From a virus: a DNA stretch of 64,000 nucleotides. How positions within the stretch are numbered: position 1 is the first letter of the stretch; the number at the start of each line of letters is the position of its first letter. Location of the stretch: the IMG/VR virus record IMGVR_UViG_3300025141_013863, positions 1 to 64,000 of that record, one strand, 5' to 3'. This document shows positions 13,417 through 30,178 of this stretch, in pieces. A program made the position numbers and the translations under genes. Under the pieces are notes generated by a model. It ran no database searches and had not been told where the DNA came from. It was given only the letters and a program-made list of their open reading frames with translations.

Positions 13417-14098
13417 TACCGTAGTATTTGATTTTGTCAATACATTAGCTTATCTAAACCCAAAAAGAGAAGATGTGATTTATAACTTTTTGATCGATAA
13501 GGGAATAAAGCTCAACAAGAGCAAGGTTCTTGATGCGTTAAAGATAGCCGACGATCAATGTCATTATAGTTGTTTTGAGATTGTTGATAAAGACTCTAAG
13601 AAAAACTTTTTTCAAACGAAATATAACAAAGCACTTTTAATGGCCCTAGACGTAGACTATACAATTGCAAATTGTATTGCGCTTTATGACTATTTCGATA
13701 ACTTATATAAAGAGTGGATTTTACATGATGGCGCCATGGAAACAATTAAAGAATTAAAGAAACTAGGCTATACTGTTGGAGTGGCATCTAATTTTGAACG
13801 CAGTCTAAAAACAAAGTTGGCAGATAGTTTGGGCCTCGTAGAACATTTAGATTTTCTAGAAGTCTCTCAGTGCATTGGCTTAGAAAAGCCAGATATCAAA
13901 TTTTATGAATATGTTATAAAGAACAATAATTTAAAGCCAAACAATACATTATATATTGGCGACAGCTATATGTTAGATTACCTGCCAGGAGAAGAAGTGG
14001 GCTTTAATTGTTGCTTATACGATAAGAATAATATTTATGGATCTGTGTCTAATAGAATAAATCACTTTAATAAAGTTTTGGAGTATATTAACAAATGA
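13409..14098 (+). CDS. HAD-superfamily protein with altered motif I
   Basis: A 229-residue HAD protein with an alpha-helical cap. Motif I is VVFDFVNTL: the nucleophile Asp8 is present, but the second Asp of DxD is replaced by Val10. Motif II is VASNFERS, motif III lies in GLEKPDIKFY, and motif IV is YIGDSYMLDY. Phosphatases of this superfamily use the DxD second Asp as the acid/base, so this protein may not be an ordinary phosphatase; haloacid dehalogenases and phosphonoacetaldehyde hydrolase also lack it. It overlaps the ATP-grasp gene by 8 bases and the mini-aminotransferase gene by 4. Confidence 0.8.
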   Translation: MIDTVVFDFVNTLAYLNPKREDVIYNFLIDKGIKLNKSKVLDALKIADDQCHYSCFEIVDKDSKKNFFQTKYNKALLMALDVDYTIANCIALYDYFDNLYKEWILHDGAMETIKELKKLGYTVGVASNFERSLKTKLADSLGLVEHLDFLEVSQCIGLEKPDIKFYEYVIKNNNLKPNNTLYIGDSYMLDYLPGEEVGFNCCLYDKNNIYGSVSNRINHFNKVLEYINK

Positions 14099-14706
14099 GA
14101 CACAATCCGTACAAAATTGTAAAAATGTTTGAAGAAACAATGGCCGATTACTGCGGTTCAAAATATGCTGTATCTACAGATAACTGTACAGATGCATTAT
14201 TGTTGTGTTGTGAATATCTTAATGTTAAAGAGGTTACGATCCCATCGCGGACTTATCTTTCTGTTCCGCAATCGATTTTGCATGCCGGCGGAACATTGAA
14301 ATTTAGAGATTATAGATGGAAGGGAGTATATCAACTGGAGCCCTATCCGATTTATGATGCAGCTAGGCGCCTTACGAGTAATATGTACATCCCAGGAAGC
14401 TTCATGTGCCTTTCCTTTCACATCAAAAAACACCTAAAGATAGGCAAGGGTGGTATGATTTTAACTGACGACGAGCAGGCCGCAAGGTGGTTTAGAAAAG
14501 GTCGTTATGAAGGCAGATCTGAGGTGATGTATCATAAGGACAATATTGAAATTAATGGCTGGAACGCATATATGAGTCCTGAGCAGGCGGCTCGCGGCCT
14601 AATGCTAATGCAAAATTATCCAGAACACAATGAGGATATACCCGAAGAACCGTTTTACAGAGATCTAAGAGAGTTTAGCCTGTTTAAAGATGTAGAGACA
14701 AAATAA
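14095..14706 (+). CDS. Miniature DegT/DnrJ/EryC1-type sugar aminotransferase
   Basis: A 203-residue protein clearly of the DegT family but barely half the usual 370-400 residues. FEETMADYCGSKYAVST and VTIPSRTYLSVPQSILHAGG match the normal N-terminal region, IYDAARRL the Asp loop, and LSFHIKKHLKIGKGGM the PLP-lysine segment with Lys112 at the Schiff-base position. Compared with full-length members it lacks the segment between the first Asp motif and the Asp loop, and the whole C-terminal small domain. The usual EGG is GKGG. Start and stop overlap the neighbours (ATGA, TAATG), so the size is not due to a frame break. It may act as a compact enzyme, a partner subunit, or a degraded copy. Confidence 0.75.
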   Translation: MRHNPYKIVKMFEETMADYCGSKYAVSTDNCTDALLLCCEYLNVKEVTIPSRTYLSVPQSILHAGGTLKFRDYRWKGVYQLEPYPIYDAARRLTSNMYIPGSFMCLSFHIKKHLKIGKGGMILTDDEQAARWFRKGRYEGRSEVMYHKDNIEINGWNAYMSPEQAARGLMLMQNYPEHNEDIPEEPFYRDLREFSLFKDVETK

Positions 14707-16326: not shown

Positions 16327-17321
16327 GTTTTTGGAAGGATAAAAAGGTTCTTGTAACTGGTGGCGCCGGGTTCATAGGCTCAAATTTATGTAAAAATTTA
16401 GTTTTAGAGGGCTCTAATGTCGTTATAGTTGATAATTTCGAAAGAGGAAAGGTAGAATACGTTCAAGAAATCTTAGATTCTTGCAAATTGATAGAAGGCG
16501 ATCTAAAGGATGTGAGTTTTTGCGAAGAAATTTTCACTTCAGATGTTGATATTGTCATTCATATGGCATCCAAAGTGGGCGGAATTGGTCTTTATACATC
16601 ACAGCCACACACAGTAATGAGAGAAAACATGCTGATTGACTCTAATGTTTTAAAATCTGTCTTACACAACAATATTAAAAGGTATTTTTATGCTTCAAGT
16701 GCTCATATTTATCCGAAACAGCTGCAAGGTACCCCAAACTCCATAGCAATTAGAGAGTACCATGCATACCCAGCAGATCCAGAGCTGTCATATGGTTGGG
16801 CAAAATTAATTTCGGAGAAAGAAATTGAATGTGCACTAATAGAAAGACCAGATTTGTGTGTAGCAATCGCAAGATATATTGGAATTTATGGAGAAAATCA
16901 AGATTTTAATTTAGAAACAGGCTCCTGTATTCCTGTATTTACAAATCGTGCAATAAATTATCCACAGATTCCGTTTAGTGTGTGGGGCACAGGAAGAGAA
17001 ACAAGATCATATTGTTTTATTGATGATGCAATTGAATGCACGAAACTGATGATTGAAAAAATGGAAGAGAAGAATCAAGTTGGGCCCTATAATGTTGGCA
17101 AGCAAGAGCGTGTTTCAATTAAAGAACTAGCCGAAGCGGTCATAAAAACATCCGGCAAAGAAATTGATATTGAATTTGATCTAACAAAAGAGACTCTTAT
17201 ATGGGGCCAATGGTGTGATTGCAGCAAAGCAAAACAAGAAATAGGATTTGAAGCCAAAACAAGCCTACAAGAAGGCCTTAAAAGAGTTTATAATGATATA
17301 CAAGGAAGGATAAAAAAATGA
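16323..17321 (+). CDS. NAD-dependent epimerase/dehydratase, GDP-mannose 3,5-epimerase-like
   Basis: A 332-residue extended SDR that starts at GTG with a 4-base overlap (GTGA). The NAD loop is VTGGAGFIGSNL; YASSAHIYPKQL and LSYGWAKLISEKE provide the Ser and Tyr-x3-Lys catalytic residues; WGTGRETRSYCFIDD is the substrate-loop region. The wording around the active site resembles GDP-mannose 3,5-epimerase and GDP-fucose synthase, both of which act on GDP-sugars at C3 and C5. Its first seven residues (MSFWKDK) are the same as those of the GDP-fucose synthase at 18256, which suggests that the two are paralogues. Confidence 0.8.
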   Translation: MSFWKDKKVLVTGGAGFIGSNLCKNLVLEGSNVVIVDNFERGKVEYVQEILDSCKLIEGDLKDVSFCEEIFTSDVDIVIHMASKVGGIGLYTSQPHTVMRENMLIDSNVLKSVLHNNIKRYFYASSAHIYPKQLQGTPNSIAIREYHAYPADPELSYGWAKLISEKEIECALIERPDLCVAIARYIGIYGENQDFNLETGSCIPVFTNRAINYPQIPFSVWGTGRETRSYCFIDDAIECTKLMIEKMEEKNQVGPYNVGKQERVSIKELAEAVIKTSGKEIDIEFDLTKETLIWGQWCDCSKAKQEIGFEAKTSLQEGLKRVYNDIQGRIKK

Positions 17322-18247
17322 GGATTCTTATAACTGGAGGCGCCGGGTATATCGGTAGTGAACTAGTAGATCATCTTTTAAGAGATGGTCATGAAGTTAC
17401 TGCGATGGATAATTTGATGTACGATGCGACATCTTTATTGAGATATACGATTCATCCAAATTTTAATTTTATAAAAGCAGATGTTGTTAACATAGATTTA
17501 TTGAGAGAACAAGTGTCTAAGGCTGATGTTATTATTCCTTTGGCTGCTCTCGTTGGATTTCCGCTCTGTGACAGAGATAAGAGAGGCGCCGTAGAAATTA
17601 ATCATGGAGTAAATGCCTGGATTGCTAAAAATAAATCTGATGATCAGATGGTAATATATCCTTGTACTAATTCTGGCTATGGAGTTAGTGTCGACGGCTC
17701 TGTTTGTACAGAAGAGTCTCCGCTAAATCCTGTCTCATTATATGGACAGACGAAGGTCGCTGCCGAAAAAGAATATAAGAATGTTGATAATCATGTAACG
17801 TTTAGACTGGCAACAGTATTTGGCCCCGGTTCAAGAATGAGAACAGACTTGCTTGTTAATAATTTTGTTCTTAGGACTCTTCGCGATCGAGTATTGGTTC
17901 TTTATGAGTGTGAATTTATGAGAAATTATGTACACCTACAAGATGTATGTCGGGCATTTAAATATGTTATTGACAACTGGGAATCTTGTAAAAACGAAAC
18001 TTACAACGTGGGCAACGATGCAATTAATATGAATAAGCTGCAGCTTGCAAGAAAGATTGGCCAACATCTCCCACTTGAGATTATAAAAGCGGAATTTACT
18101 TCTGATCCTGATACGCGCGATTATATCGTAAGCAGCCAAAAATTTTATGATAAAGGATTTGAATGTAAGTATGATTTAGATGATGGAATACGACAACTTA
18201 TTAAAGCGTATAGCATTATTGAATCTCCATGGTACGCAAATTATTAG
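17318..18247 (+). CDS. NDP-sugar epimerase/dehydratase (extended SDR)
   Basis: A 309-residue extended SDR. RILITGGAGYIGSELVDHL is the NAD-binding start, PCTNSGYGV the equivalent of the Ser/Thr catalytic strand, and SLYGQTKVAAEKEY the Tyr-x3-Lys motif. MRNYVHLQDVCRAF is the typical substrate-domain segment. It resembles UDP-glucose 4-epimerase and related enzymes, but the sequence alone does not fix the nucleotide sugar. It sits between two GDP-sugar type SDRs with a 4-base overlap upstream. Confidence 0.85.
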   Translation: MRILITGGAGYIGSELVDHLLRDGHEVTAMDNLMYDATSLLRYTIHPNFNFIKADVVNIDLLREQVSKADVIIPLAALVGFPLCDRDKRGAVEINHGVNAWIAKNKSDDQMVIYPCTNSGYGVSVDGSVCTEESPLNPVSLYGQTKVAAEKEYKNVDNHVTFRLATVFGPGSRMRTDLLVNNFVLRTLRDRVLVLYECEFMRNYVHLQDVCRAFKYVIDNWESCKNETYNVGNDAINMNKLQLARKIGQHLPLEIIKAEFTSDPDTRDYIVSSQKFYDKGFECKYDLDDGIRQLIKAYSIIESPWYANY

Positions 18248-18255
18248 GAAAGAAA

Positions 18256-19206
18256 ATGTCATTTTGGAAAGATAAAACAGTATTAGTAACCGGCGGCCAT
18301 GGCTTTGTGGGTACTCACGTTATAAGAATGTTAAAAGAAAAAGAGGCTGCAACCATACATGCCCCATCTAGATATGATTATGATTTAACAGTTGAACAGC
18401 AGGTGCAATTAATGTTTGAGCACCTCAGACCTGATGTCGTAATTCACTTAGCAGGAAAGGTTGGTGGAATTGCCGCAAACAAGTCAGATCCGGGAACATT
18501 TTTTTATGACAACATTATGATGGGTACCCTTGTATTAGAATATGCTCGCCGCTATAATGTTCAGAAAACGGTTGCTCTAGCGGCAGGATGCGGCTATCCA
18601 TTAAATTTAGAGGTGCCATATACTGAAAATGATTTTTGGAGTGGTTTACCTCAAGAAGAATCGATGGGATATTCAATGGCAAAAAAGATGTTAATAGTAC
18701 AATCTTGGACGTACCGATTACAATATGGGTTCAACTCATCGATATTATTACCAGCAAATCTTTATGGACCTAATGATAATTTTGATCTAGAGAAGAGCCA
18801 TGTTGTTCCAGCCCTGATAAGAAAATTTTTAGATGCCAAGCAAAACAATATACCACTAGTAGAAGTGTGGGGTACAGGCGCCGCGACAAGAGAGTTTTTA
18901 TATGTAGAAGATACTGCGAAAGCTATTCTTGATGTTGCTGAAAAGTTTAATCATAGCGGTCCTTTAAATTTAGGCACGGGTGTCGAAACATCTATTAAAG
19001 TACTTGTCGAAACAATTGTAGAACTTGTTGGCTATGAAGGAGATGTAGTGTGGAACACTGATCGTCCGGACGGACAGCCTAGAAGATTTTACTGTATGGA
19101 AAGATTTAGAAAGCACATGGGATATGTTCCGAGCACACCATTAAAAGAAGGCCTACAGAAGACAATCGATTGGTACCTAAATTCGACAGATAAGAAGAGG
19201 TTGTAA
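18256..19206 (+). CDS. fcl: GDP-L-fucose synthase
   Basis: I start at the ATG at 18256 (ribosome binding site AGGAAAG), giving 316 residues, which is the usual length for Fcl/WcaG. The NAD(P) loop is VTGGHGFVGTHV; LAGKVGGIAANKSDP is typical of the family; the catalytic Tyr-x3-Lys is GYSMAKK; and ANLYGPNDNFDLEKSHVVPALI is a near-signature of GDP-fucose synthase. The enzyme epimerises GDP-4-keto-6-deoxymannose at C3 and C5 and reduces C4 to give GDP-L-fucose. The upstream enzyme GDP-mannose 4,6-dehydratase is not in the window, so its substrate must come from the host or from elsewhere in the genome. It supplies the GT11 enzyme at 15436. Confidence 0.9.
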   Translation: MSFWKDKTVLVTGGHGFVGTHVIRMLKEKEAATIHAPSRYDYDLTVEQQVQLMFEHLRPDVVIHLAGKVGGIAANKSDPGTFFYDNIMMGTLVLEYARRYNVQKTVALAAGCGYPLNLEVPYTENDFWSGLPQEESMGYSMAKKMLIVQSWTYRLQYGFNSSILLPANLYGPNDNFDLEKSHVVPALIRKFLDAKQNNIPLVEVWGTGAATREFLYVEDTAKAILDVAEKFNHSGPLNLGTGVETSIKVLVETIVELVGYEGDVVWNTDRPDGQPRRFYCMERFRKHMGYVPSTPLKEGLQKTIDWYLNSTDKKRL

Positions 19207-20232: not shown

Positions 20233-20646
20233 ATGACAAGAAAGTACCTACCCACGCTGTCAGAATTGATAGATAGATTATCAATTGCACAACTAAAAGA
20301 AGTGTTTATTACGGAACATAAAGAGGAGTACGCAGAGGAAATTTCTGATATTCTTCATGATATTAATTTGACTTTAAAAGAAAAAGAGGTTATATTAGAT
20401 GCTGATGCTGTTAGAGCAATTGTTGTTTTGTCACAAATGAATTTGCATATTTGGCACAATGAATCAAATTACCGCAAAGGGATCAAAGATGGCAATAACT
20501 TAGAGCTTACGCACGGCTTAAATGGTATTCGCAACACTGCTAAAAACAAGATACAAGAACTTGCGGGCGGTAGAAAAGATTATAAGATTGACTGCCTTGC
20601 CGCAGAATTTAAAGATTGGGAAATAAGTTGGAAACAAGAAGATTAG
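20233..20646 (+). CDS. Hypothetical helical protein in the sugar island
   Basis: A 137-residue, mostly helical protein that begins at the base after the previous stop. The N-terminal LPTLSELIDRLSIAQLKEVF and the His/Asp-containing EISDILHDINLTL are its most distinctive parts, and the Trp/His segment NLHIWHNESNYR follows. I do not recognise a named family. Placement between a glycosyltransferase and the radical SAM gene suggests an accessory role in the same pathway. Confidence 0.7.
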   Translation: MTRKYLPTLSELIDRLSIAQLKEVFITEHKEEYAEEISDILHDINLTLKEKEVILDADAVRAIVVLSQMNLHIWHNESNYRKGIKDGNNLELTHGLNGIRNTAKNKIQELAGGRKDYKIDCLAAEFKDWEISWKQED

Positions 20647-22154
20647 ATGTCTTATTCGTACACACAAACTCTTCAAAAAAGATTTATCAAGACTTAGCAA
20701 AAGATCATTCAGCGATCGAGCCTCCTATTTGGGCGGCCATGTTAGCTAATCATTGTCGAGCTAATGGTTTTGGTGTTAATATATTAGATTGTGAAGCAGA
20801 AAGAATAGACGATGAAACGTCGGCCAATTTAATCAGTGATATGAATCCTAGAGTGGCTTGTTTTGTGGTTTATGGTCAACAGCCTAGTGCGTCTACACAG
20901 AATATGCAAGGCGCCGTGGATACTGCAAATATGTTAAAGAAGGTTGATCCTTCTATCCCTATCTTATTTGTCGGCGGCCATGTGTCGGCATTGCCCAGAG
21001 ATGTGTTGCGTAATGAGCCATCTATTGATTATATATGCCAGAATGAAGGCGTATACACTATCAGTAATTTGTTAGCAGCCCTTCAAAGTTCAAATTTTGA
21101 TCCGAGCAAAATCCGTGGCTTAGGCTACAGAGATGATTCTGGAAATCCTATCTTAAATGAAACAGAATCTATTGTTGCCAAGAAAGATCTTGCACACCAA
21201 TTGCCTGGAATGGCTTGGGATTTATTGCCTGATATTACAAAGTATAGAACAGCCGGCTGGCATTCCTGGTCTAATAATACCGAAAAAGAGCCTTTTGCTG
21301 CTTTATATACAAGCTTAGGGTGTCCCTATAGATGTTCATTTTGTATGATCAACATTATTAATCGAACTAATTCGGCCGTCAACATTGCAAGTGCTGATAG
21401 TAATATATTCAGATGGTGGGAGCCCGAATTTATTATAGGCCAATTTGATGAAATTGCCAGGATGGGTGTCAAAAATGTTAAAATTGCTGACGAGTTGTTT
21501 GTATTAAACCCTCGACATTTTATGAAAGTTTGTGAATTGCTAATTGAAAGAGACTATGGTTTTAATATTTGGGCATACTCTAGAATTGATACCTGTAAGC
21601 CTGCATATCTAGATACTTTAAAGAAAGCTGGTGTAAACTGGTTAGGTCTTGGTATTGAAAACCCCAACCAGACTTTGCGCCAGCAAATACATAAAGACAA
21701 CTACAAAGAAGTAAAGATTACTGATATCATGGATAGTATGAGAAACGCTGGTATAAATGTAGCAGCGAACTATATTTTTGGCTTACCAATGGACACAGAA
21801 GAAAGCATGCAAGGCACCCTTGATTTTGCAATGGAAAATATGTCAGAGATGGTGAATTTATATTGTGCCATGGCATACCCAGGAAGCCCACTACACCTAA
21901 CTGCAAAGAAAGAAGGCTTGATCCTTCCACAGGCTTATTCTGGTTATAGTCAACATTCTTACGATACATTAAATTTATCAAGCAACAACCTTACATCGAA
22001 ACAGATATTGGGCTTTAGAGATAAAGCATGGATGCAATATCATACGAATCCAGAGTATTTGAAGCTATTAGAAACAAAGTTTGGTACCGTGGCTCGCCAA
22101 AATGTGGAAGCCACAACAAAGATTAAATTAAAAAGAAAATTATTAGGAGATTAA
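20628..22154 (+). CDS. B12-binding-type radical SAM protein
   Basis: About 508 residues. No ATG is available near the conserved start, so I place it at the TTG at 20628; a TTG at 20616 is possible. The N-terminal domain (DVLFVHTNSSKKIY, then ACFVVYGQQPSAS and FVGGHVSALP) has the Rossmann-like fold of cobalamin-binding domains, though the classical DxHxxG is not visible. The radical SAM core has CPYRCSFC, the Cx3Cx2C motif for the 4Fe-4S cluster, and LGLGIENPN and YIFGLPMDTEESM fit the rest of the barrel. Related proteins methylate or rearrange unactivated carbons. In a sugar island it could make a C-methyl or deoxy sugar. It overlaps the previous gene by 19 bases. Confidence 0.85.
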   Translation: METRRLDVLFVHTNSSKKIYQDLAKDHSAIEPPIWAAMLANHCRANGFGVNILDCEAERIDDETSANLISDMNPRVACFVVYGQQPSASTQNMQGAVDTANMLKKVDPSIPILFVGGHVSALPRDVLRNEPSIDYICQNEGVYTISNLLAALQSSNFDPSKIRGLGYRDDSGNPILNETESIVAKKDLAHQLPGMAWDLLPDITKYRTAGWHSWSNNTEKEPFAALYTSLGCPYRCSFCMINIINRTNSAVNIASADSNIFRWWEPEFIIGQFDEIARMGVKNVKIADELFVLNPRHFMKVCELLIERDYGFNIWAYSRIDTCKPAYLDTLKKAGVNWLGLGIENPNQTLRQQIHKDNYKEVKITDIMDSMRNAGINVAANYIFGLPMDTEESMQGTLDFAMENMSEMVNLYCAMAYPGSPLHLTAKKEGLILPQAYSGYSQHSYDTLNLSSNNLTSKQILGFRDKAWMQYHTNPEYLKLLETKFGTVARQNVEATTKIKLKRKLLGD

Positions 22155-22159
22155 ATAAT

Positions 22160-23104
22160 ATGCCCGCAGACAATAAAAACAAAGTTACTGTTTTAAAACT
22201 TAGAAGACAAAAGAGAGAAGGAACAAAGACTGTGCTAGTCACAGCATATGATTATCCGCAAGCACGTATTGCTGATAATGCCGGGGTCGATGCTATTTTG
22301 GTAGGCGACTCTTTGGGAATGACAACTCTTGGCCACAAGACAACAATCCCGGTTACTATGGATGACATGATGGCGCACTGCGAAGCGGTGTCCCGTGGTT
22401 CAAAGCGTGCTTTTTTGATTGGTGATATGCCTTATATGTCGTATCAGATTTCCAACGAAGAAGCTGTTAGGAACGCCGGCAGATTTATTTGTGCTGGAAT
22501 GGATTGTGTCAAGGTCGAGGGCGCCCAAACCGAAAGAATTAAGGCTATTGCTGATTCTGGAATTATGGTAATGAGCCATTTGGGCCTCACTCCCCACACT
22601 CGCGCAAAGTTAGGCGGATATCGCGTGCAAGGCAAGACCGCAAAGCAAGCAGAAATTATTCTGGAACAGGCACTAAGGCTACAAGAAGCCGGCTGTTCTT
22701 TCTTGCTCTTAGAGGGTATGCCAAGAGAATCTGCAGCAATGATTACAGAAAGCTTAAGAATTCCTGTTTATGGTATTGGCGGCGGAGATATGGTCGATGG
22801 ACAACTTGTGATCTTTCACGATCTAACTGGATTATTTTGGGAGTTCAAGTCTAAGTTTGTCAAGAGATACTGCGAGGCCGGCCAGCTTATGCAATCTGCA
22901 CTAGAACAATATGCACAAGAAGTCAGAGAGGGCGTTTTTCCCGCAGAAGAGAATTTTTACGCCATCAGGGAAGAAGAGCTTGAAAAGCTTCTCGGAGACT
23001 CAAAGTGGAAGTATGAAACTGATCAGGGTTTTCCTACAAACCATAGCGTAACTCCAAACACCGTTACATTAAAAGAAGATCCTTATAAAAAAAAATTGTC
23101 ATGA
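22160..23104 (+). CDS. panB: Ketopantoate hydroxymethyltransferase (PanB) family protein
   Basis: A 314-residue protein that closely follows PanB. VTAYDYPQARIADNAG and ILVGDSLGM (Asp50), LIGDMPYMSY (Asp89) and KVEGA (Glu120) supply the magnesium ligands, and LLLEGMP (Glu185) supplies the catalytic Glu. SHLGLTPH and GGYRVQG are also family hallmarks. PanB uses 5,10-methylene-tetrahydrofolate to add a hydroxymethyl group to 2-ketoisovalerate on the way to pantothenate. It is about 50 residues longer than the E. coli enzyme, with an added hydrophilic C-terminal tail. The adjacent ThDP enzyme also handles 2-keto acids, so the pair may build or use a branched keto compound instead of making vitamin B5. 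Confidence 0.9.
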   Translation: MPADNKNKVTVLKLRRQKREGTKTVLVTAYDYPQARIADNAGVDAILVGDSLGMTTLGHKTTIPVTMDDMMAHCEAVSRGSKRAFLIGDMPYMSYQISNEEAVRNAGRFICAGMDCVKVEGAQTERIKAIADSGIMVMSHLGLTPHTRAKLGGYRVQGKTAKQAEIILEQALRLQEAGCSFLLLEGMPRESAAMITESLRIPVYGIGGGDMVDGQLVIFHDLTGLFWEFKSKFVKRYCEAGQLMQSALEQYAQEVREGVFPAEENFYAIREEELEKLLGDSKWKYETDQGFPTNHSVTPNTVTLKEDPYKKKLS

Positions 23105-23173: not shown

Positions 23174-25006
23174 ATGAAATTAGCTGATTATGTTATAAAT
23201 TATCTTGCCGATATCGGAGTTAAAGAAGTGTTTGTTGTTTATGGCGCCGCCAATGGTAGCCTTATCGACGCATTTACAAGAAACGATCAAATTAGATATG
23301 TGGCGACCATGCACGAACAGGGTGCCGGATTTGCAGCAGAAGGATATGCCAAGGTTTCAAAAAACATAGGTGTTGCGATCGCCACTAGCGGCCCTGGTGG
23401 AATGAATTTTGTAACATCTGTCGGTAATTGTTTTTATGATTCGGTGCCCTGTCTGTTTATTACGGGCCAGATTAAAACAAAGTACATGCGACCTGACGAG
23501 TCAATTCGCCAGATCGGATTCCAAGAGACAGATATTGTAAGCATTGTGAAGCCATTAGCTAAATATGCGAAGCTTATCGAAGACCCGAATAGTATCAAAT
23601 ATGAACTACAGAAGGCCATTTATCTTGCAAAGAACGGTCGACCGGGCCCAGTATTTTTAGATATTCCCATTGATGTACAAAAAGCAGATATTGTTCCTGA
23701 AAGGTTAATTGGTTTTGATGAAGAACTCCAAGAAGTTTGCTACAATAATAGTAGAATCGAGGAACAAATAGATCGTTTTCTGAAAGATTTATTCAAGTCA
23801 GAGCGTCCCTGCTTAATGGTTGGCGGCGGCGTTCGTCTAGCGGATGCTGAAAAAGAGCTGCTTGAGTTGGCAAGAATCTTAAAGATACCGTGTTTTCCCA
23901 CATGGAATGCATTAGATATTGTTGCTTCAGATTTTGAATATTATGGCGGCCGTATTGGAACATATGGTGGAGCCGGAAGAAACTTTGGAATCCAAAATTC
24001 CGATCTATTGTTGGCAATTGGAAGTCGTATTTCTGGTAGAATTACTGGCGGAGAGCCTCACTTGTTCGCAAGAGGAGCTAAGAAATATATGGTAGACGTT
24101 GATGGAGCCGCTATGCAAAGAAAGCTACAACAGCTGCCATTTGATGAGTGTATCCTTTCGGATGCTAAGCTATTTATTAGCCTGATGATTAAGAAACTAA
24201 AGAACTATGATGTTCCAGATTATACACAATGGACAGAGAGAGTGATGGAATGGAAAGTAAAATATGATCCAGTAACAAAAGACATGTATAATCCTTCTCA
24301 ATATATTCATCCATATGTGTTTTTAAGAATTCTTTCCGAAGAAATGGGCGCCAATGATATTCTAGCAGGTGATTGTGGTGGAAATATTGTTGCCATTAAT
24401 CACTCTTTTGAAACCAAAGTGGGACAACATTATTTTACTAATAATGGAAACTCTCCCATGGGATTTTCATTCGCCGGCGCAATGGGCGCATGCTTTGTAG
24501 CAGAGGATACACAGAATGTTGTATGTGTAATTGGTGATGGTGGAATGAATATGAATATTCAAGAAATTCAAACCGTAATAAATTATGGTGTTAAACTAAA
24601 AACTATTATATTGAATAATCATATTTACGGAATTACAAAAGCTTTTCAAGAAGTTAACTTTGAAGGTCGCAGCGAAGCATGTGGACCAAAAGGTTATAAT
24701 CCTCCAGACTTTATTAAAATTGCAAAAGCATATGGCATCGATAACATGATTATTGAAGATGGAACAGACTATGAAAAAGTTCGTAGACAGATTCGTGAAT
24801 TTTTAGATCATGATTCGGCAGTTATTTGTGACGTAAATTGTCACGAGTATCACACATATGAACCAAAGATTGTTGGATGGTCTACTCCTATTGAAGATAT
24901 GTACCCTTATCTTCCGCGAGAAGAATTCTATTCTAACATGGAGATCGAGCCATTAGAAATTTCTAAGGATCCTCCAATGCCAAGTATTTTTAATAAAAAG
25001 GATTAA
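23174..25006 (+). CDS. ThDP-dependent acetolactate-synthase-like enzyme (possible YerE-type)
   Basis: A 610-residue member of the ThDP enzyme family. The N-terminal pyrimidine-binding domain has MHEQGAGFAAEGYAK with the activating Glu48. The middle domain contains PCLMVGGGVRLADAEKELLE. The C-terminal domain carries GDGGMNMN (454-461) and LNNHIYG (480-486), the GDG...NN motif binding magnesium and diphosphate. Family members decarboxylate pyruvate or another 2-keto acid and pass the aldehyde unit to an acceptor, as acetolactate synthase does. YerE does the same onto a 3,6-dideoxy-4-ketosugar to make yersiniose. The ColD-like gene at 25924 makes the YerE type of reaction attractive, but this is inference. 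Confidence 0.85.
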   Translation: MKLADYVINYLADIGVKEVFVVYGAANGSLIDAFTRNDQIRYVATMHEQGAGFAAEGYAKVSKNIGVAIATSGPGGMNFVTSVGNCFYDSVPCLFITGQIKTKYMRPDESIRQIGFQETDIVSIVKPLAKYAKLIEDPNSIKYELQKAIYLAKNGRPGPVFLDIPIDVQKADIVPERLIGFDEELQEVCYNNSRIEEQIDRFLKDLFKSERPCLMVGGGVRLADAEKELLELARILKIPCFPTWNALDIVASDFEYYGGRIGTYGGAGRNFGIQNSDLLLAIGSRISGRITGGEPHLFARGAKKYMVDVDGAAMQRKLQQLPFDECILSDAKLFISLMIKKLKNYDVPDYTQWTERVMEWKVKYDPVTKDMYNPSQYIHPYVFLRILSEEMGANDILAGDCGGNIVAINHSFETKVGQHYFTNNGNSPMGFSFAGAMGACFVAEDTQNVVCVIGDGGMNMNIQEIQTVINYGVKLKTIILNNHIYGITKAFQEVNFEGRSEACGPKGYNPPDFIKIAKAYGIDNMIIEDGTDYEKVRRQIREFLDHDSAVICDVNCHEYHTYEPKIVGWSTPIEDMYPYLPREEFYSNMEIEPLEISKDPPMPSIFNKKD

Positions 25007-25923: not shown

Positions 25924-27111
25924 ATGACATTCAAAAAAGAAAGAGAAAAAGAAATTAGGTTTCCACTAGCGATGGAAACAATCGATAACAACGATATTGA
26001 TGCCTTGTGCAGCTGGCTTAAATCTTATCCTAGGCTTACGAAAGGTGATCTAACTAAGGAGTTTGAGAGTCAGTGGGCAGAATATATTGGAACGAAATAT
26101 TCAGTCTTTTGTAATTCTGGATCCTCCGCTAATCTTCTTATGATCTACGCTGCATATGCTTCTGGCAAAATGAAAAATAATAAGATCGCCGTGCCTTCTG
26201 TTGGGTGGGTCACCACGATTGCCCCAGCAATGCAATTTGGCTTAGAACCAATTATGATTGGCGCAGATAAAGAAACATTTGGCATGGACTTAGACCAGTT
26301 AGAGAAGCTGTGTGAAGAAGACATTCCTGGCGCCGTAATTTTTGTTCAAGTGTTGGGTGTCCCTCACTATAAAGAAAGAATCCTGCAATTACAGAAGAAG
26401 TATGGCTTTGTGCTTTTAGAAGATTCGTGTGCCGCTTTAGGGGCAGAATACTCCGATGGAACTATGATTGGTGCCCTGGGCGATATGTCTAGTTTTTCCT
26501 TTTATTTTGGACACCAGCTGTCATCTATTGAGGGAGGCATGGTTAATACCGACAACAAAGAGCTTTATGATTTGATGTTGATGCTGCGCAGCCATGGCTG
26601 GGGAAAGGATCTTGATCAAGAGACATACGATGGGCTGATTCAACAGCACGGTGTGGATGATTTTCATAAGCCGTTTACTTTCTTTGTCGCAGGATTTAAC
26701 CTGCGCTCGACAGATCTACAGGCATTTTTGGGACTCAGACAGATGAAAAAAGCAGGCTGGGTTGCCCAAAGAAGGTATGAAAACCACAAACGATATGCAG
26801 AAAATTTAAAGGGCTATGTAGAATTTCAAAATTGGCGTGATCATAAACCAGTATCTATTTCATTTGGAGCCCTTGCAGACAGTACGGAACATCGACAAAC
26901 TATTGTAGAAAGACTTGTTGAGAACAAGATAGAGACAAGAATTTTTAGCGCCGGTAATCTAGGACTGCATCCTTTTTGGACGGAGCAGTATGGCGAATTT
27001 GATGACGAAATGAGCAATAAGATACATTCATGTGGGTTCTTTGTACCAAATTACCCAGAACTCACTAACGAAGATATTGATTATATTTGTAGCGTTATAA
27101 AAGGTGAGTAA
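25924..27111 (+). CDS. ColD-like PLP-dependent sugar 3-dehydratase (DegT family, Lys to His)
   Basis: A 395-residue DegT-family protein of full length. FCNSGSSANLLMIYAAY, VPSVGWVTTIAPAMQFG, VLLEDSCAALGAEYSDG and FNLRSTDLQAFLG are the normal landmarks. At the PLP site the sequence is SFYFGHQLSSIEGGMV, so His197 stands where aminotransferases have the Schiff-base Lys. That change is characteristic of the dehydratases ColD and RfbH (E1), which use PMP to remove the C3 hydroxyl of 4-keto-6-deoxyhexoses. The product would be a 3,6-dideoxy-4-ketosugar. The 4,6-dehydratase at 29219 could make its substrate. The next gene starts on its last base. Confidence 0.9.
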   Translation: MTFKKEREKEIRFPLAMETIDNNDIDALCSWLKSYPRLTKGDLTKEFESQWAEYIGTKYSVFCNSGSSANLLMIYAAYASGKMKNNKIAVPSVGWVTTIAPAMQFGLEPIMIGADKETFGMDLDQLEKLCEEDIPGAVIFVQVLGVPHYKERILQLQKKYGFVLLEDSCAALGAEYSDGTMIGALGDMSSFSFYFGHQLSSIEGGMVNTDNKELYDLMLMLRSHGWGKDLDQETYDGLIQQHGVDDFHKPFTFFVAGFNLRSTDLQAFLGLRQMKKAGWVAQRRYENHKRYAENLKGYVEFQNWRDHKPVSISFGALADSTEHRQTIVERLVENKIETRIFSAGNLGLHPFWTEQYGEFDDEMSNKIHSCGFFVPNYPELTNEDIDYICSVIKGE

Positions 27112-27848
27112 TGAGAATTCTTGTTATTGGAGATAGTTGCAAAGACGTTTTTATTTATGGAGATTGTAGTAGATTAGCTCCAGCAGCGCCAGTTCCTGTA
27201 TTTGTCGAAAAGTATAGAAAGACCAATAAAGGCATGGCCGGCAATGTTTATGAAAATGTATTATCTCTAGGGGTAAAGTGCGATATAATTACTAATAAAG
27301 CCGAGATTATAAAGACTCGTTATGTTGAAAAAAAGACCAATCATATGATAGTGCGTGTTGATTCTGATGAAGAAAAGATCGATAGAATCAAAGATATTAA
27401 CATAGAAGCTCTACAGCAATATGACGCAGTTATAATTTCTGATTATAATAAGGGCTTTTTGCTTGAAGAAGATATACAATTTATTGCTGATAATCATGAG
27501 CTTGTTTTTTTGGATACAAAAAAACTTTTAGGCGATTGGGCAAGGAATATAAATTTTATTAAAATTAACGAACAAGAATATGAAAGAACTAGACACCTTT
27601 TGGTAGATAAAGAATGGCTTGACGAAAAGTTGATTGTTACAATGGGCGCCCGCGGCTGTATATACAATGGTAATATTTATCGAGTTCTTCAAGTTGAAAT
27701 TAAAGATTTGACAGGAGCCGGCGACTCGTTTTTGGCAGCCTTAGTTTATAAGTTTGTTAAAGAGGCAGATATAATATCTGCTATAAAATATGCCAATGAA
27801 TGTGCTACAAGAGTTGTACAACAAAAAGGAGTTAATACAATTAAATGA
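27111..27848 (+). CDS. PfkB-family kinase, HldE N-terminal (heptose-phosphate kinase) like
   Basis: A 245-residue PfkB/ribokinase-fold protein. ILVIGDSCKDVFIYGDCSRLAPAAPVPV at residues 3-30 follows the start of the HldE kinase domain, including the APVPV segment. DLTGAGDSFLAAL (199-210) holds the GAGD anion hole and catalytic Asp205. It is shorter than the roughly 320-residue HldE kinase domain. In E. coli HldE this domain phosphorylates D-glycero-D-manno-heptose 7-phosphate at C1. The nucleotidyltransferase half of HldE has its counterpart as a separate gene at 28129, with one small membrane-protein gene between. Substrate assignment rests on this pairing. Confidence 0.85.
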   Translation: MRILVIGDSCKDVFIYGDCSRLAPAAPVPVFVEKYRKTNKGMAGNVYENVLSLGVKCDIITNKAEIIKTRYVEKKTNHMIVRVDSDEEKIDRIKDINIEALQQYDAVIISDYNKGFLLEEDIQFIADNHELVFLDTKKLLGDWARNINFIKINEQEYERTRHLLVDKEWLDEKLIVTMGARGCIYNGNIYRVLQVEIKDLTGAGDSFLAALVYKFVKEADIISAIKYANECATRVVQQKGVNTIK

Positions 27849-28132
27849 CATTTAAAGAATACTATCAATATTATTTGACTTTACATCAGAATCCTACAAA
27901 TAGATATTTACACGTACTAGGCCAAATGGTGACCATTAGTTATGTTGTATCAATGATCGCAGCCGGCTGGTGGTGGGCACTATTAGCAGCACCATTTGTG
28001 GTATATCCGTTTGCGTGGACCGGACACTTTTTCTTTGAGAAGAATACACCGGCCGCCTTTTCGCGCCCTATTTGGGCGAAAGCGTGCGATTGGGTTATGC
28101 TTAAAGATATTTTGACTGGAAAACTTAAGTGA
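27845..28132 (+). CDS. Mpo1-like (DUF962) small membrane protein
   Basis: A 95-residue protein with the DUF962/Mpo1 pattern: YYLTLHQNPTNRYLHVLGQ near the N-terminus, with conserved His residues, and two hydrophobic segments, MVTISYVVSMIAAGWWWALL and the region around AAPFVVYPFAWTGHFFFEKN. Yeast Mpo1 is an iron-dependent dioxygenase that shortens 2-hydroxy fatty acids by one carbon. Here it is the only evident membrane protein inside the sugar operon, overlapping both neighbours by 4 bases. A link to lipid or LPS modification is possible but not shown. Confidence 0.8.
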   Translation: MTFKEYYQYYLTLHQNPTNRYLHVLGQMVTISYVVSMIAAGWWWALLAAPFVVYPFAWTGHFFFEKNTPAAFSRPIWAKACDWVMLKDILTGKLK

Positions 28133-28521
28133 AACTAGTTTGGGTAAATGGGTGTTTTGATGTTTTACATCGTGGGCATCTTGAAATGTTGAAGTATGCT
28201 AAGTCTCTCGGTGATTATTTAATGGTAGGCATTGATTCTGATCAAAAAGTAAAGAAAGATAAAGGTAGTAATCGTCCGTTTAATAATGCTGAAGATCGTA
28301 AGTTTGCTTTAGAATCAATAAGATATGTTGACAAGGTGCTGGTTTTTAATTCTCGTGCAGGATTAGAACACTTAATAAAACTATTAGAACCAGATTATAT
28401 GGTTATTGGTTCGGACTGGAAAGGAAAAGAAGTTGTAGGTGAGTCATATTGCACAGAATTAAAATTTTTTGATAGAATAAGTACATACTCAACAACAAAG
28501 ATCCTGGAAAATAATAAATGA
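28129..28521 (+). CDS. HldE C-terminal-like / cytidylyltransferase-type nucleotidyltransferase
   Basis: A 130-residue protein matching the nucleotidyltransferase domain of HldE and of glycerol-3-phosphate cytidylyltransferases. VNGCFDVLHRGH (6-17) is the HxGH motif, GDYLMVGIDSDQKVKKDKG follows it, and RISTYSTTKI is the closing (S/T)T motif. The order kinase then nucleotidyltransferase, as two genes, mirrors the two halves of HldE. It would convert a sugar 1-phosphate to an ADP- or CDP-sugar. It starts with GTG inside the preceding stop and overlaps the next gene by 4 bases. Confidence 0.88.
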   Translation: MKLVWVNGCFDVLHRGHLEMLKYAKSLGDYLMVGIDSDQKVKKDKGSNRPFNNAEDRKFALESIRYVDKVLVFNSRAGLEHLIKLLEPDYMVIGSDWKGKEVVGESYCTELKFFDRISTYSTTKILENNK

Positions 28522-29218: not shown

Positions 29219-30178
29219 ATGAAATTAGTTGTTATAACTGGATGTTTAGGACTAATTGGTATGCATGTTACAAGGCACTGTCTTGAAAAAGGATGGAAAG
29301 TGCTGGGCATTGATAAGATTACGTATGCATCTAATCCTAAAGTTTTAGGCCAGTTTTCATATTATGAAAATTTTGATTTTAGAAAAGAAGACATATGTGA
29401 GCTGAAACAAATGCCAGATTGTGATTACGTGATCAACATAGCGGCCGAATCTCATGTTGGAAACAGTATTGTTGATAGTGAAAGCTTTATTCAATCTAAT
29501 ATCTTTGGCGTTAAACATCTTTTAGACTTAATTAAAAATAAGCAAGACAATGTTAGTGATCGTCCTGTGTTTTTTCATTTTAGTACAGATGAAGTATACG
29601 GTGATATTACCAAAGGGGAGCACACCGAATTTGATATTCTTAAGCCAAGCAATCCATATTCTGCATCAAAAGCTGCAGCAGATATGTTAGTTCTTGCGTG
29701 GGCAAGAACTTATGGAATTAAATATTTAATCTTGCGCCCCACAAACAATTATGGGATAGGACAGTATCCTGAAAAACTAATACCGCTAGCTGTCAAAAAT
29801 CTTATGAGAAATAAAAAAATTAAACTTCACGACAAAGGAGAACCAATTAGAAACTGGCTACATGCTGAAGACACAGCTTCTGCGGTCACTACTTTAATTG
29901 AATCGGGAGTTGTAAACGAAATTTACAATGTAGCTGGCGGGTTTGAACAAAAGAATATAGAAACTATTATTAAAATTTTAGAATCTTATTTTGATGAAAT
30001 AAGAGAAGAGGGTGATTGGAGTGAATATCTTGATCTTTCATATGATAGAGAAGGCCAGGATGTTCGTTATGCTCTTAATGACCAGAAACTTCGTGCGCTT
30101 GGTTGGCGCCCCGAAAAACAATTTGATCGAGAGATTAAAAATATAGTTAATTTTTATAAAGATAATTTTAAATGGTAA
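29219..30178 (+). CDS. NDP-glucose 4,6-dehydratase-like enzyme
   Basis: A 319-residue extended SDR. VVITGCLGLIGMHV is the NAD loop, FHFSTDEVYGD carries the Thr-Asp-Glu triad that distinguishes 4,6-dehydratases such as RmlB, and NPYSASKAAAD has the Tyr-x3-Lys. LRPTNNYGIGQYPEKLIPL and RNWLHAEDTASAV are also RmlB-like. The reaction makes a 4-keto-6-deoxy sugar from NDP-glucose or a related hexose. This is the natural first step before the ColD-like dehydratase at 25924. The nucleotide (dTDP, CDP, GDP or ADP) is not determined. It is the last gene of the sugar island. Confidence 0.88.
   Translation: MKLVVITGCLGLIGMHVTRHCLEKGWKVLGIDKITYASNPKVLGQFSYYENFDFRKEDICELKQMPDCDYVINIAAESHVGNSIVDSESFIQSNIFGVKHLLDLIKNKQDNVSDRPVFFHFSTDEVYGDITKGEHTEFDILKPSNPYSASKAAADMLVLAWARTYGIKYLILRPTNNYGIGQYPEKLIPLAVKNLMRNKKIKLHDKGEPIRNWLHAEDTASAVTTLIESGVVNEIYNVAGGFEQKNIETIIKILESYFDEIREEGDWSEYLDLSYDREGQDVRYALNDQKLRALGWRPEKQFDREIKNIVNFYKDNFKW

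Follow-up and report, generated by a model that had tools for sequence, protein, structure and literature searches.

The question raised by this locus is what a virus gains from a panB gene embedded in a group of sugar genes. Viral panB has hitherto been counted as an auxiliary metabolic gene (AMG) of vitamin B5, and has served as an argument that viruses increase the CoA of their hosts; among the vitamin genes of an oxygen-minimum-zone virome, viral 'pantoate transferase' ranked first in abundance and was interpreted as boosting CoA (PMC8940887). The window, i.e. the whole stretch of 64,000 nucleotides that was analysed (positions 1 to 64,000 of the IMG/VR record IMGVR_UViG_3300025141_013863), is part of a virus record of 90,332 bases. 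Its genes of interest are listed below, with the evidence for each in brackets.

17318..18247, +: SDR of family c17, candidate reductase/epimerase, recurring near carboligases of lineage TA (family match, neighbourhood)
18229..19206, +: GDP-L-fucose-synthase-like SDR, candidate sugar reductase (NF047922, 272 bits, cut-off 500)
20616..22154, +: B12-binding radical SAM protein (Pfam B12-binding and Radical_SAM, neighbourhood)
22160..23104, +: PanB-type 2-oxo acid hydroxymethyltransferase, phage clade (Pfam, NCBIfam and PDB matches, fold search, conservation, clade)
23174..25006, +: YerE-like ThDP-dependent carboligase, lineage TA (TPP_enzyme N, M and C domains; JanthE the top PDB match by sequence and fold)
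25924..27111, +: ColD-like PLP-dependent 4-keto-sugar 3-dehydrase whose PLP lysine is replaced by His, FYFGHQLSSIEGG (top PDB match ColD, 2gms, E 2e-52; motif)
27111..27848, +: HldE-type PfkB sugar kinase (PF00294; rfaE_dom_I below cut-off)
28129..28521, +: HldE/TagD-type nucleotidyltransferase (rfaE_dom_II, 115.6 bits, cut-off 181.5)
29219..30178, +: RmlB-like NDP-hexose 4,6-dehydratase (TIGR01181, 307 bits, cut-off 365)

The PanB protein and its active site

The panB ORF encodes 314 amino acids, has an ATG start and is preceded by a GGAG ribosome site. The protein matches PF02548 over its full length with 331.6 bits (cut-off 28.7) and the panB equivalog TIGR00222 with 284 bits (cut-off 207.6), and its closest solved structures, by sequence as well as by fold search of the PDB, are ketopantoate hydroxymethyltransferases (KPHMTs). 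Because panB homologues differ far less at codon positions 1 and 2 than at position 3, where most of the divergence lies, the window gene is, judging from these comparisons, under purifying selection. The identification as PanB in the original prediction thus holds for an intact gene, and its claim of a complete active site was correct: in the alignment, Asp50, Asp89, Glu120 and Glu185 correspond to Asp45, Asp84, Glu114 and Glu181 of the E. coli enzyme, Ser51, Lys118 and His140 are likewise kept, and all of these residues are invariant throughout the phage PanB clade. In E. coli numbering, Asp45, Asp84, Lys112, Glu114, His136 and Glu181 are all identical.

Phage PanB has the fold, the Mg2+ ligands and the catalytic Lys, His and Glu in common with canonical PanB (EC 2.1.2.11), but differs from it in several respects. 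The phylogeny against bacterial PanB that had been proposed as a check places the window protein in a distinct phage clade. Two phage-specific loops, TPHTRAKLGGY and WEFKSKFVKRYCEAG, and a C-terminal extension of about 48 residues, all absent from the original prediction, set it apart; in the first loop the canonical TPQS/T has become TPHTRAK, and the stretch FKSKFVKRYCEAG, a loop in which it also differs from canonical PanB, is invariant in the phage clade. In the structure models, which were built from shallow alignments, both loops are low-confidence regions and the C-terminal extension is not confidently folded. Finally, canonical V/V is replaced by L/I in the pocket, and the panC neighbour is missing.

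The 2-oxo acid pocket of E. coli KPHMT is shaped by I202, I212 and V214, for which the variants I202A, I212A and V214G have been described (PMC7610986). Phage PanB has I, L and I at these three positions. L212 and I214 are found in every sequence of the window clade, as is Met at 183, and Tyr occupies position 200 in 98% of them; bacterial PanBs mostly have Val 212, Val 214, Val or Ile 183 and Ile 200. Since the residues at 212 and 214 are bulkier in phages than in bacteria, the phage pocket is probably smaller, which would favour pyruvate or 2-oxobutanoate. With formaldehyde, the wild-type E. coli enzyme has been used on a series of 2-oxo acids, among them pyruvate as 2a (PMC10127515). The substitutions in the phage pocket are of modest extent, and the change at 212/214 is an imperfect marker, as two bacterial PanBs (L109 and L128) have it without a ThDP neighbour. 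The PanBs of L348 and L370, about 65% identical to that of the window, combine a retained TPQS with the phage pocket residues, so that, on the aligned sequences, the pocket residues seem to have changed before the TPHTRAK loop arose.

Pantothenate genes and the CoA reading

If the gene were an AMG in the usual sense, phage PanB would supply ketopantoate to the PanE and PanC of the host for the synthesis of pantothenate and CoA. Membership of the PanB family, with all catalytic residues present, agrees with this, as does the interpretation given to the abundant viral 'pantoate transferase' of the oxygen-minimum zone (PMC8940887); those AMGs go by the enzyme name of phage PanB and likewise come from marine virus contigs. 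The original prediction had reported no panC, panE or panD, which was confirmed: none of 50 virus records, among them the 90 kb record of the window, had panC, panE (ApbA_C) or ilvD, and none of 14 had panD. All of these records are fragments, so that the missing genes count as supporting evidence. The searches for the PanC, PanE and IlvD families covered the 50 virus records that have the PanB family, and controls in well-known bacteria were positive. Moreover, the carboligase partner and the sugar-branching context are constant, and both the lid loop and the pocket depart from a canonical PanB that is nearly invariant there (e.g. Gln142 to His, Val214 to Ile). We therefore regard a boost to CoA synthesis, which had been offered as the alternative, as unlikely; the CoA-booster reading of viral panB (PMC8940887), where the gene is tied to vitamin B5 and not, as here, to sugar branching, is probably wrong for the window PanB clade.

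A strictly linked carboligase

A search of viral contigs with PanB alone gave 80 loci at about 72-95% identity, and a ThDP-dependent carboligase was adjacent to PanB in every one of them, with a median gap of 1 bp and in both gene orders; the loci come from related phages, so that 80/80 does not stand for 80 independent events. The phage PanB clade is paired with three carboligase lineages which are only some 33-36% identical to one another. Counting well-supported branches only, the PanB tree requires at least four partner changes for lineage TA and at least four for TB, and as read from this tree PanB and its carboligase partners have thus re-associated several times. The link of PanB to a sugar-branching carboligase is strong.

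PanB beside a carboligase was seen in no bacterial locus examined. When the phage PanB alignment was searched against species genomes of bacteria and archaea, 84,980 in all, no adjacent carboligase appeared among the matches listed; the best of these was 52% identical, and they were mostly canonical TPQ PanBs, often beside panC. The phage PanB motif occurred in none of 201 genomes of one phylum. Two panB matches in isolate phages were inspected and set aside as bacterial-looking, with panC nearby and no carboligase. MW495066 (L093) and CAKLQH020000014 (L094), which are public 'phage' records and have both panB and panC, resemble bacterial chromosome (purL, sufBCDS; thrS, infC, rpmI), and records of this type call for caution in surveys of viral metabolic genes. 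The plasmid matches inspected were canonical panB-panC or true acetohydroxyacid synthase (AHAS), and an unannotated Paraburkholderia match grouped with AHAS in the tree. As to the host, the one structural protein tested had no isolate match.

Identity of the ThDP enzyme

YerE-like enzymes, such as JanthE and PpYerE, transfer an acyl group from 2-oxo acids onto 4-keto-3,6-dideoxy sugars. The nearest NCBIfam model for the window ThDP enzyme is acetolactate synthase, yet the score is 365.8 bits against an equivalog cut-off of 538, and ilvD is absent from the 50 records. JanthE (8rph) is the nearest solved relative, ranking first in the PDB by sequence, ahead of PpYerE (5ahk), and taking ranks 1 to 6 of the fold search; it is about 30% identical to the window carboligase and has an unusual CDG in the ThDP motif where the phage enzyme has GDG. 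In the tree, the phage carboligases together with JanthE and PpYerE, which have long branches, are split from AHAS with an SH-aLRT of 100, these two enzymes being the YerE-like references. The partner thus groups with YerE-like carboligases by sequence, fold and tree rather than with acetolactate synthase, and acyl transfer to a ketone is predicted for it. JanthE accepts 4-hydroxy-2-oxovalerate (PMC12247030; PMC12188165), and the donors of ErwE are 4-hydroxy-2-oxo acids (PMC12247030).

The acceptor side

That PanB sits in a sugar island, as originally described, is borne out by the carboligase, ColD-like 3-dehydrase, RmlB-like dehydratase and SDRs around it. Neighbours of the DegT family were found in 78 of 95 mapped loci, and all the DegT-cluster neighbours inspected have His at the position of the PLP lysine, as in the sugar 3-dehydrases of the yersiniose and erwiniose pathways. 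They are of three types: ColD, to which the window protein belongs, RfbH/E1, and a third with ASHVITAGG. RmlB-like dehydratases and SDRs recur across the PanB loci as well. From its genes, the island is predicted to encode a pathway for branching a 3-deoxy-4-keto sugar. A 4,6-dehydratase, a His-type 3-dehydrase, a YerE-like carboligase and an SDR are shared with the YerE/ErwE branched-sugar pathways (yersiniose A, erwiniose, caryophyllose); unlike these, the phage loci are phage-encoded and have PanB beside the carboligase. The third His-bearing dehydrase (ASHVITAGG.GGM) travels with the third carboligase lineage, in L031, L037, L063 and L072.

Genes in the place of PanB

Further relatives came from searches with alignments of the two main carboligase lineages, so that this sample is built around the carboligase. 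Within four genes of 117 distinct carboligases lay the phage PanB (81), a second PanB clade (6), a class I aminotransferase (6; L335, L337, L357, L367, L371 and L376), an HpcH/HpaI aldolase (4; L317-L319 and L323, with weak HpcH matches of 26-31 bits), an Ldh_2 protein (2; L306 and L320) or a 4-hydroxy-2-oxovalerate-aldolase-like protein (1; L326). The remaining 17, several of them at contig ends, had no recognised source of a 2-oxo acid within that distance. The second PanB clade, 43-46% identical and with a TPQS motif, occupies the same place in L294, L301, L302, L304, L332 and L373, and in the tree it falls with a Spirochaete PanB, apart from the window clade. Some substitutes are not adjacent (HMGL at -3, Ldh_2 at +4). 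In the PanB-less loci L317-L319 and L323-L325, an HpcH-like aldolase and/or a 4Fe-4S LdpA-like protein adjoins the carboligase.

A 2-oxo acid can come from any of PanB, aldolases, aminotransferases and Ldh_2; with PanB and the aldolases it is a 4-hydroxy-2-oxo acid. Because the genes in PanB's place are thus producers of 2-oxo acids, the pattern fits what a supply of donor to the carboligase would predict.

Proposed order of the reactions

PanB likely makes the donor of the carboligase. As a whole, we consider a two-step scheme fairly probable: PanB would hydroxymethylate a 2-oxo acid of small size, the best guess being pyruvate, and the carboligase would pass the hydroxyacyl group so formed on to a sugar, the substrates being deduced from gene content and pocket residues. 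PanB would enolise the 2-oxo acid (most likely pyruvate, possibly 2-oxobutanoate or ketoisovalerate) and add a hydroxymethyl group from 5,10-methylene-THF, yielding a 4-hydroxy-2-oxo acid; the conversion of pyruvate into 4-hydroxy-2-oxobutanoate appears the most probable. A 3-deoxy (3,6-dideoxy) nucleotide sugar would come from the 4,6-dehydratase together with the ColD/E1-type dehydrase. The carboligase would then decarboxylate the 4-hydroxy-2-oxo acid, and the hydroxyacyl carbanion would attack the sugar at its C4 ketone, after which an SDR may reduce the new ketone. The expected product is a 4-C-branched deoxysugar for a phage-directed glycan, and PanB would fill the part that a 2-oxo acid aldolase could play, providing the hydroxy-2-oxo acid needed by ErwE-type enzymes.

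The original prediction had PanB possibly acting on another keto acid or on the product of the neighbouring ThDP enzyme. Its partnership with that enzyme is supported by the strict linkage and the substitute genes; the second option has the order probably reversed. It would have the carboligase add the acetyl group of pyruvate to the 4-ketosugar, and PanB hydroxymethylate the resulting alpha-hydroxy ketone. The gene set would be identical, such a ketone could conceivably chelate Mg2+ much like a 2-oxo acid, and the phage-specific loops, being of low confidence in the model, leave room for a larger substrate. However, no conserved residue of a 2-oxo acid enzyme has been lost, the pocket residues are bulkier and not smaller, and the genes found in PanB's stead point to donor supply, which makes this order improbable. 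It is similarly doubtful that ketopantoate itself is the donor, with normal PanB chemistry on ketoisovalerate, after which a hydroxypivaloyl group would pass to the sugar: the canonical catalytic residues would suit an unchanged PanB substrate, but residues 212 and 214 of the phage pocket are larger, and so hindered a donor would presumably be hard for the carboligase.

A phosphonate-like pathway, in which a member of the PEP mutase superfamily, a ThDP decarboxylase and a PLP enzyme act as in aminoethylphosphonate synthesis, was considered because PanB belongs to that superfamily and PEP mutase is among the fold matches. It was dropped as very improbable, since the PEP_mutase score is 24.9 bits, below the cut-off of 31.5, and the PanB match is far better, the carboligase is YerE-like and the PLP enzyme is a dehydrase without the transaminase lysine.

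With PanB as donor maker, a wider proposal can be put forward, if only tentatively. A repurposed PanB subfamily of folate-dependent hydroxymethyltransferases may turn pyruvate into 4-hydroxy-2-oxobutanoate, a donor dedicated to YerE-like carboligases, and the donor gene may be a swappable phage cassette (PanB, aldolase, aminotransferase or dehydrogenase), giving varied new branched deoxysugars in marine phage glycans by a previously undescribed route; we found no paper in the open-access literature that links PanB to sugar branching. If the clade is indeed a donor enzyme of sugar branching, CoA inferences drawn from it need revision, and a check of the neighbouring genes offers a direct rule. 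The proposal also suggests a new answer to the source of hydroxylated donors for YerE-like enzymes, predicts branched sugars, as yet unknown, made by marine phages, and would let the PanB-carboligase pair build chiral tertiary alcohols from a one-carbon unit in few steps.

Other genes of the island

The B12-binding radical SAM protein lies directly upstream of panB and stays beside the TA carboligase in PanB-less loci (L357-L364); a modification of the same sugar, or of the donor, is a possible role. A protein of 95 residues similar to Mpo1 (2-hydroxy-palmitic acid dioxygenase) is encoded at 27845-28132, within the sugar island, and relatives of it occur near PanB in 15 of the 95 mapped loci. 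A DegT-family protein at 14095-14706 has 203 residues, about half the usual length; its match to the family falls into two separate parts, as after an internal deletion.
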